Source: Lysobacter sp. Root76 (GTDB lineage Bacteria > Pseudomonadota > Gammaproteobacteria > Xanthomonadales > Xanthomonadaceae). Taken from it: a stretch of 64,000 bases of DNA. Where the stretch lies: NCBI RefSeq assembly GCF_001428685.1, contig NZ_LMIK01000005.1:184170-248169 (forward strand). Reading direction: 5' to 3'. Every line of letters begins with the position of its first letter. The stretch's first letter is position 1. The translations under genes and the position numbers were made by a program. The notes below the pieces were generated by a model. It searched no databases. It saw only the letters and a program-made list of their open reading frames with translations, and was not told where the DNA came from. Of this stretch, positions 18,335 through 41,327 are shown piece by piece.

Positions 18335-18411
18335 TGGCGCGCCCGGAGGGATTCGAACCCCCGACCAATGGCTTCGGAAGCCACTACTCTATCCGGCTGA
18401 GCTACGGGCGC
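18335..18411 (-). tRNA. tRNA-Arg (anticodon CCG)
   Basis: The minus strand folds into a full cloverleaf: 7-bp acceptor stem (GCGCCCG with CGGGCGC), D-loop AGCTCAGCCGGATAG, anticodon stem-loop with loop TTCCGAA giving anticodon CCG (reads CGG), and T-arm with GTTCGAATCC. CCA is encoded (18335-18337). No integration-type repeat of the 3' end was seen nearby. Confidence 0.96.
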
Positions 18412-38920: not shown

Positions 38921-39220
38921 ACCGGCCGTCGGTACCGGGGGCCGCAAGCGCCGCTGCCATAGCGGGTTTGCGGTCACATCTCAGGGTATTGCATCGGGAC
39001 CGGACTGACCGCAATCTACGGGTATTGACCGGCTGCGTCGCATTTGGACGTAGTCGGTAAGACAGCCTGACTATGTCGGCGCCCGGCGAGGAATCACGGA
39101 TCCCCCCTGTTCCGTCCCCGTCGGGCGTCGGCGCCTCTCCCGGCCACGGCGCAAGGCTTTGCGCCCCGCGCGTTCGACGCGCCAGGCCCACCGGATAGCT
39201 GAGAATCGGCGCGAATCGCG

Positions 39221-39260
39221 CAAAAAATAAGGGGCCGAATGTCCCCCGACATTCGGCCCC
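39221..39260 (-). terminator. Strong intrinsic terminator of the candidate small RNA
   Basis: A perfect 13-bp stem (39231-39243 with 39248-39260), four-base loop, followed on the minus strand by TTATTTTTTG. The plus strand has no T-run after the hairpin, so the direction is clear. Confidence 0.85.
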
Positions 39261-39337
39261 CTGCTTCCCCCGCGAGCGCTTGGCCAGCCCCTGTTCCAAT
39301 TCCGACCGGCGTCTAGCGCCTGCCCCGCTGGGTGCAT
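39221..39337 (-). ncRNA. Candidate sigma54-dependent small RNA upstream of mnmG
   Basis: Between a sigma54-type promoter (39348-39362) and an intrinsic terminator (39221-39260), both on the minus strand, lies about 115 bases with no believable reading frame. The predicted transcript starts near 39336. It is G-rich, with several GGGG runs and four GGA trinucleotides (two in the stretch complementary to 39285-39300, one near 39266 and one spanning the terminator loop), a pattern reminiscent of RNAs that bind CsrA/RsmA. No family was recognised. Promoter, transcript and terminator are all predicted from sequence. Confidence 0.55.
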
Positions 39338-39347
39338 GAGTTATGAC

Positions 39348-39362
39348 GCAGGAACCGTGCCA
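39348..39362 (-). promoter_or_regulatory. Sigma54 (RpoN) promoter
   Basis: Minus strand TGGCACGGTTCCTGC. GG of the -24 element (39361-39360) and GC of the -12 element (39349-39348) are separated by exactly 10 bases, and TGGCACG is a full match; CTGC differs from TTGC by one base. It points away from mnmG into the 115-base segment that ends in the terminator. Confidence 0.65.
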
Positions 39363-39437
39363 AGTTTCGACGCCGACGCACCCTCCGGCGCCATGCCCTA
39401 AAATTCCGCCCGCCGCCCCGCGGCGCCGGACCCTGCG

Positions 39438-41327
<1,890 letters not shown>

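Follow-up and report, generated by a model that had tools for sequence, protein, structure and literature searches.

What controls the small RNA gene that lies divergently from mnmG in Lysobacter sp. Root76, and what might its RNA act on? The locus was analyzed within a window of 64,000 nucleotides, the whole stretch of DNA under study. The mnmG (gidA) gene (39438-41327, plus strand) encodes a 629-aa protein that scored 885.6 bits against TIGR00136 (cut-off 524.85), and a candidate -10 box for this gene, TAAAAT, was read from the sequence at 39399-39404 (plus strand), downstream of the asX1 promoter described below. Of 99 family loci examined, 94 contained mnmG; some of the 99 are short, and two are hairpin rather than asX1 loci (L066, possibly others). 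Elsewhere in the window, a tRNA gene is located at 18338-18411 (minus strand).

The minus strand at 39225-39334 matched the Rfam asX1 model (RF02235) over its full length (93.9 bits, gathering score 70, model positions 1-115 of 115). By sequence, the RNA is a member of an already described family, and nothing in this member is divergent. The founding paper of the family is reportedly that of Schmidtke in 2012. The predicted asX1 RNA (39223-39336, minus strand) would start near 39336 and extend for about 114 nt downstream of a -24/-12 element, and its fold was better than those of 200 of 200 shuffled sequences (z -4.7). It ends in an intrinsic terminator (39222-39262, minus strand), a GC-rich stem of 14-15 pairs from 39262 to 39229 with the loop GGGG, followed by TTATTTTTT; a reading made from the sequence alone had recognized this GC-rich hairpin and given its length as 13 bp. 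The main loop holds GGAACAGGGG at 39288-39297 (minus strand), and GAACAGG was present in this loop in 41 of the 43 genus representatives. The same sequence-only reading had described about 115 bases without a credible reading frame. An 88-aa open reading frame is in fact present on the minus strand, with its ATG at 39337, and a protein-coding interpretation of 39337-39071 was rejected, as an ATG occurred at that place in only 3 of 43 genus representatives. Expression of asX1 homologues has been reported, in the available text of the two sources, for X. campestris pv. raphani (PMC4652430) and for Xylella fastidiosa cells (PMC12189769); the titles, abstracts and partial texts that made up most of the literature searched mentioned no role for asX1.

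A sigma54-type -24/-12 promoter element lies upstream of asX1 at 39348-39362 (minus strand). Its sequence, TGGCACGGTTCCTGC, reads TGGCACG-N4-CTGC, in which the CTGC of the -12 box in place of TTGC is the one mismatch and the GG-N10-GC spacing is intact, as had been noted from the sequence alone. Within the window the motif is unremarkable, since 33 of 100 shuffled windows contained at least one TGGCACG-N5-TGC; that it stands far beyond chance follows from conservation across genera. For that comparison, one representative from each of 44 genera was positioned by its Rfam match rather than by the motif. TGGCA-N7-TGC was located 26-33 nt upstream of the Rfam asX1 start in 41 of the 44 genera (0.01% of shuffled upstream regions), and GG-N10-GC was found at a fixed distance from asX1 in 43 of them (6% of shuffled upstream regions). 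In the remaining genus, g8 (L109), the motif lies farther upstream, because the weak Rfam match is misplaced. When the motif itself served as the anchor, the element was present in 51 of the 51 first loci. Column information over the 44 genera reached 1.8-2.0 bits at TGGCA and TGC, equal to that at the 5' end of asX1, and was mostly 0.0-0.6 bits both over the 30 columns that precede the element and over those separating its GC from the start of the RNA. The predicted asX1 start falls 2-4 nt upstream of the Rfam start, as expected for a sigma54 promoter. The prospect that the -24/-12 element might lack conservation in close relatives, which the sequence-only reading had named as grounds for giving up its proposal, is thus not borne out; and its central proposal, that promoter, RNA and terminator form one sigma54-type small RNA gene divergent from mnmG, is supported by the RF02235 match and the co-conserved element. 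These comparisons indicate that asX1 very probably has a sigma54 promoter, and we would predict with high confidence that its transcription depends on sigma54.

The genome encodes one rpoN match (G000:C1:888012-888485, E 5.3e-63). rpoN was detected in 40 of 42 genomes examined, and because it is so widespread a test of co-occurrence has little power. The two genomes in which rpoN was not detected are G177, which has neither asX1 nor the convergent RNA described below, and G161, which is 82% complete and has a degenerate asX1; the G161 loci (L080/L108) show both a degenerate -24 box and a degenerate asX1 loop. Throughout the Root76 genome, TTGGCACG-N5-TGC occurred 7 times, compared to once for the reversed control. 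One of the seven boxes (L254, G000:C10:130686-130701) lies 69 nt before glnA, a classical sigma54 target, and offers a useful positive control for the sigma54-type element. A further observation concerns the region between asX1 and mnmG in Xanthomonas, where a TGTGA-N6-TCACA palindrome, presumably a Clp/CRP-like site, has its midpoint 57 nt ahead of the predicted start of asX1 in 19 of 22 records (L170-L191). By eye it is also present in part of genus g9; the window contains no exact copy. As far as published work is concerned, no link between asX1 and sigma54 was found in the literature searched, which consisted mostly of titles and abstracts and did not extend to Schmidtke 2012. The available text of a review of RpoN names crcZ and crcY as RpoN-dependent RNAs, with Qrr2 appearing in a reference title (PMC8657755).

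A second conserved element faces asX1. In all 51 first loci, which were picked solely by their asX1 match with no loop pattern required, GAACAGGG occurs twice on the asX1 strand, once within asX1 and again some 115-230 nt farther along. This more distant copy corresponds to the opposite strand of a hairpin at 39075-39132 on the plus strand (arms 39075-39088 and 39119-39132). The hairpin folds better than its shuffles on the plus strand (z -2.9), and its mean energy over the 51 loci was -37.3 kcal/mol; a minus-strand reading of the same hairpin was rejected, with a fold no better than shuffles (z -0.3) and a mean energy of -27.3 kcal/mol. Double compensatory changes were found in 8 of 19 pairs among 25 aligned sequences and in 11 of 17 pairs among 55 sequences from several families. 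The pair table of the 25 sequences held 67 G-U cells and 6 A-C cells on the plus strand, which places the RNA on that strand; as the structure had been predicted there to begin with, this placement calls for caution. We refer to this element as the C-loop RNA. It is unannotated, is predicted to span 39025-39136 (plus strand) with a start near 39025, and was missed by the sequence-only reading, which had otherwise correctly recognized a small RNA gene, although one of an already known family. Its C-rich loop (39098-39113, plus strand), GGATCCCCCCTGTTCC, contains AUCCCCCCUGUU. The loop core CCCCCTGTTC was identical in 55 of 55 aligned sequences, a set picked by a pattern that demanded most of the loop; L073 was dropped from it for GGACT, and L088, with the variant loop CCCCCTGTTT, lies outside it. 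No Rfam family scored above its cut-off at the hairpin in the window and seven further loci searched, and the sX13 covariance model (RF02232) gave no match at the hairpin locus. A C-rich apical loop within a conserved, covarying RNA hairpin, which is a feature of sX13-like regulatory RNAs, is nevertheless present.

As a gene, the C-loop RNA is poorly defined at both ends. A weak candidate sigma70-type promoter consists of a -35 box, TTGCAT (38989-38994), and a -10 box, CAATCT (39012-39017), separated by 17 nt on the plus strand (38989-39017). This promoter seemed recurrent by eye; of the 43 genus representatives, 12 contained the strict pattern TTGNNT-N16-18-CANNCT (0.1% of shuffles) and 21 contained CANNCTA (6.5% of shuffles). 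A T-run within 110 nt after the C-loop was found in 7 of 43 genus representatives, following a separate hairpin in Xanthomonas and relatives and directly following the C-loop stem in, for example, L072, L076 and L081; the window has none after the C-loop RNA. A transcript longer than 39025-39136 is possible, and the C-loop RNA is a putative independent transcript. Its 5' part forms a second hairpin of 12 pairs in the window (39028-39059, plus strand), and TGAC..GCGTC in this part recurs by eye in many family loci.

The two elements are closely linked across the family. The covariance-model comparison across relatives that had been proposed along with the gene found RF02235 in 218 of 247 family genomes, and a hairpin model, R1, matched 230 of the 247. 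All 218 asX1-positive genomes carry the C-loop hairpin, and none of the 17 hairpin-less genomes is asX1-positive; weak asX1 matches in two of the latter, G208 (L107) and G348 (L110), have neither the hairpin loop nor asX1 features. In 12 family genomes the hairpin is present with no asX1 match at E 0.001 under stricter filters. Ten of these were inspected (all except G228 and G253), and in nine the hairpin is faced by a diverged stretch that resembles asX1 and bears a GG-N10-GC element. In the tenth, G267 (L066), asX1 is lost and the C-loop hairpin is kept and abuts mnmG, which argues that the loop is under another constraint. A broader hairpin model, R2, run with stricter filters, matched 3 family members and 0 of 271 class genomes outside the family (274 in total), a set that may or may not include other families of the order; this result argues against the model being loose.

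The loops of the two RNAs are complementary. CCCCUGUUCC, within the C-loop RNA, perfectly complements GGAACAGGGG of the asX1 loop, giving 10 Watson-Crick pairs, and in the window 10 strict pairs were reached by 31 of 2000 shuffles (0.0155). Among the 43 genus representatives, the longest contiguous Watson-Crick stretch was 10 pairs in 26, 9 pairs in 15 and 6 pairs in two, genera g76 and g79. The shuffle fraction was below 0.05 in 37 of the 43, which, the genera being related, are not 37 independent tests. When G-U pairs were allowed, an average of 23% of shuffles attained the observed length over 98 family loci. Co-folding of the two window RNAs yielded a gain of -16.4 kcal/mol, which was reached by 5 of 150 shuffles. 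Because asX1 is G-rich, complementarity to a C-rich loop is cheap. From the matching loops we infer that asX1 and the C-loop RNA may pair.

Relatives of the locus were found beyond the family. Among 151 genomes of the order, R1 matched 58, of which 33 belong to other families (E 1e-6 to 1e-3). RF02235 matched 24 of the 151, all in the family of the window (24 of the 25 family members drawn) and none in these other families. Twenty of the 33 other-family loci were fetched: 12 from family f12, four from f11, two from f3, and one each from f2 and f5. mnmG adjoins the hairpin in 19 of the 20, and a TGG-N9-TGC motif faces the hairpin in 18, the exceptions being L240 and L242. In the 12 loci of f12 and the two of f3, the facing RNA contains CAGGGG, and its longest complement to the C-loop is 6-9 nt; the shuffle fraction was below 0.05 in 0 of these 14 loci. 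The pairing is statistically weak in f12, as it is in single genomes. The four f11 loci have a different facing RNA, short and of sigma54 type, which reads GUCAGGGGGAAUC or a variant of it and is complementary to the opposite side of the C-rich loop, GGAUUCCCCCUG, over 11-12 nt including G-U pairs and in a shifted register. With 60 shuffles per locus, shuffle fractions there ranged from 0 to 0.033; the complementary stretch is identical in two of the four loci. Pairing kept with another sequence in f11 is the best single argument, at the level of sequence comparison, that both RNAs would meet.

In the reading we consider best, asX1 is induced through sigma54 and antagonizes the C-loop RNA, and the two form an RNA switch beside mnmG, a proposal we hold with moderate confidence. 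Sigma54 RNA polymerase, together with an enhancer-binding protein, would transcribe asX1 from 39336 to about 39223 (minus strand), and another promoter, probably a housekeeping one, would drive the C-loop RNA toward it from about 39025 to 39136 (plus strand). The long hairpin of the C-loop RNA would expose the C-rich AUCCCCCCUGUU and, in the manner of sX13, would repress mRNAs that carry G-rich motifs close to their start codons. Once sigma54 is active, the asX1 loop GGAACAGGGG would pair with the C-rich loop, and the paired C-loop RNA would be titrated or destroyed, freeing its targets. This titration model is drawn from the sX13 precedent, the C-rich loop and the presence of its complement in asX1 under a sigma54-type promoter. 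The retention of the C-loop where the asX1 side is short or lost would fit a C-loop RNA with targets of its own, tracked by a decoy. In a wider form, which we put forward more tentatively, such a switch would operate in several families of one order: sigma54-induced asX1 and its unlisted relatives would oppose the C-loop RNA tail to tail beside mnmG, with complementarity kept through different sequences, and sigma54 activity would switch off a C-rich-loop repressor at the post-transcriptional level.

Two alternatives bear on asX1 itself. It is highly improbable that asX1 is transcribed by sigma70 and that the likeness to a -24/-12 promoter is accidental. A CATAAC hexamer located 5 nt upstream of the Rfam start matches the -10 consensus at 4 of 6 positions, but the stretch from the GC box to the start of the RNA holds 0.1-0.6 bits per column, whereas TGGCA and TGC are nearly invariant across the 44 genera. 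A consensus scan also found no sigma70 promoter in the region, although it likewise missed the promoters proposed here for mnmG and the C-loop RNA. With no consensus promoter and no conservation of the hexamer, this interpretation was rejected. The suggestion of the sequence-only reading, that asX1 sequesters CsrA/RsmA, appears very unlikely to us. The four GGA motifs on which it was based, one of them at the terminator loop, were counted again in the predicted RNA; at least four are present in 31 of 43 genus representatives, GGGGGAC is also kept by 31 of the 43, and the loop GGAAC by 40. However, ANGGA occurred in only 9 of 43 rather than as several conserved copies, and genera g7, g13 and g90 (L019-L022, L075, L079, L084) have lost the loop GGA and kept GAACAGGGG, which favors base-pairing over CsrA binding by a small margin (GAACAGG in 41 of 43, GGAAC in 40 of 43). 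In addition, the Xanthomonas RNA that sequesters RsmA is named RsmU in the available text of its report, which sets it apart from asX1 by name alone (PMC7694677).

The other two alternatives concern the relationship between the RNAs. asX1 may be a sigma54-dependent small RNA with its own mRNA targets, and the C-loop RNA an independent neighbor whose complementarity follows simply from one loop being G-rich and the other C-rich. The conservation of the asX1 promoter does not depend on a partner, complementarity in f12 and f3 was no better than in shuffles and is cheap in a G-rich RNA, and the C-loop RNA outlives the loss of asX1 in G267. Nevertheless, the side-by-side linkage in all 218 asX1-positive family genomes and the complementarity retained in f11 by another sequence speak against mere proximity, and we consider an independent neighbor rather doubtful. 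The regulation might also run in the reverse direction, such that the C-loop RNA silences asX1 or the two form a duplex that undergoes cleavage, the C-loop RNA thereby setting a threshold for asX1. The pairing evidence is identical for either direction, titration is symmetric, and the sequences are silent on which RNA has targets. Yet across the order the C-loop is under tighter conservation than the loop of asX1 (part of these sequences having been picked by loop pattern), and its persistence alone in G267 points to targets of the C-loop RNA, which makes the reverse direction improbable. The switch in which asX1 antagonizes the C-loop RNA thus remains our preferred reading.

Matches to GGAACAGGGG were searched near start codons. 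The motif occurred 3-13 nt before an ATG in 90 of 119 genomes, a count to be read with the caution that it resembles a ribosome-binding site, so that the reversed control is unfair to it. No mRNA target recurring across genera was seen among the 30 loci and the matches listed from the 119-genome scan. In the Xanthomonas genome G061 (L146, at about 1501), a cardiolipin-synthase-like gene starts 8 nt after GGAACAGGGG; it scored 273.7 bits against TIGR04265, below the cut-off of 290. In G198, of the same genus as Root76 (L156, at about 1501), GGAACAGGGG precedes the start of ihfA, which encodes integration host factor alpha (TIGR00987, above cut-off). Integration host factor (IHF) aids transcription from many sigma54 promoters. 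The X. oryzae RNA trans3287 is reported, in the available text of two sources, to repress cardiolipin synthase (PMC11435070, PMC6192180); trans3287 might be this locus, which we note as a lead only.

A tie to sigma54 would give asX1 an input, and the convergent C-loop RNA would give it a candidate output. Motility, pilus and metabolic regulators of Xanthomonas act through RpoN, according to the available text of published sources. If the proposed switch is correct, a sigma54-controlled antidote to a C-rich-loop repressor, kept across several families, would represent a new layer of control. As far as the literature was searched, a scope that stopped short of Schmidtke 2012, the sigma54-type promoter of asX1, its relatives in other families and the complementary convergent partner are new.

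Comparison with known systems places the locus as follows. The asX1 of the window shares its terminator and its GGAACAGGGG loop with the relatives of RF02235 in the Xanthomonadaceae. Qrr, GlmY and GlmZ are under sigma54 control. CrcZ and CrcY are described, in the accessible part of the review, as transcribed from RpoN-dependent promoters and as antagonists of Hfq-Crc (PMC8657755). Like all of these, asX1 is a small RNA with a -24/-12 promoter; none of them gave an Rfam match at the locus, and here, in contrast, the RNA presumed to be the decoy sits next to its partner, converges with it and is complementary to it. GlmY has been termed a decoy small RNA in the text available to us (PMC7073468), and the decoy logic proposed here is similar, although the asX1/C-loop pair lies outside the GlmY family.

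The sX13 RNA of Xanthomonas (RF02232) has in common with the C-loop RNA a C-rich apical loop, and it differs from the single long hairpin of the C-loop RNA in having three stems, as given in the part of its description that was available (PMC3771888). According to the same partial text, sX13 acts without Hfq, its C-rich loops repressing mRNAs in which G-rich motifs lie close to the start codon, and many Xanthomonas genes are repressed through these loops (PMC3771888). The sX13 homologue of the Root76 genome is located outside the window (L052, G000:C5:390320-390429), and the C-rich stretches of this homologue might likewise encounter the G-rich asX1 loops. Finally, a locus that encodes a small RNA plus its own RNA antagonist has been described, in the text accessible to us (PMC8687705). 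The asX1/C-loop locus would likewise encode a small RNA and its antagonist, and it is not of that family. The described system is, we presume, CJnc190/CJnc180 of Campylobacter. CJnc190 and CJnc180 overlap as antisense RNAs, whereas asX1 and the C-loop RNA do not overlap and would pair through their loops only.
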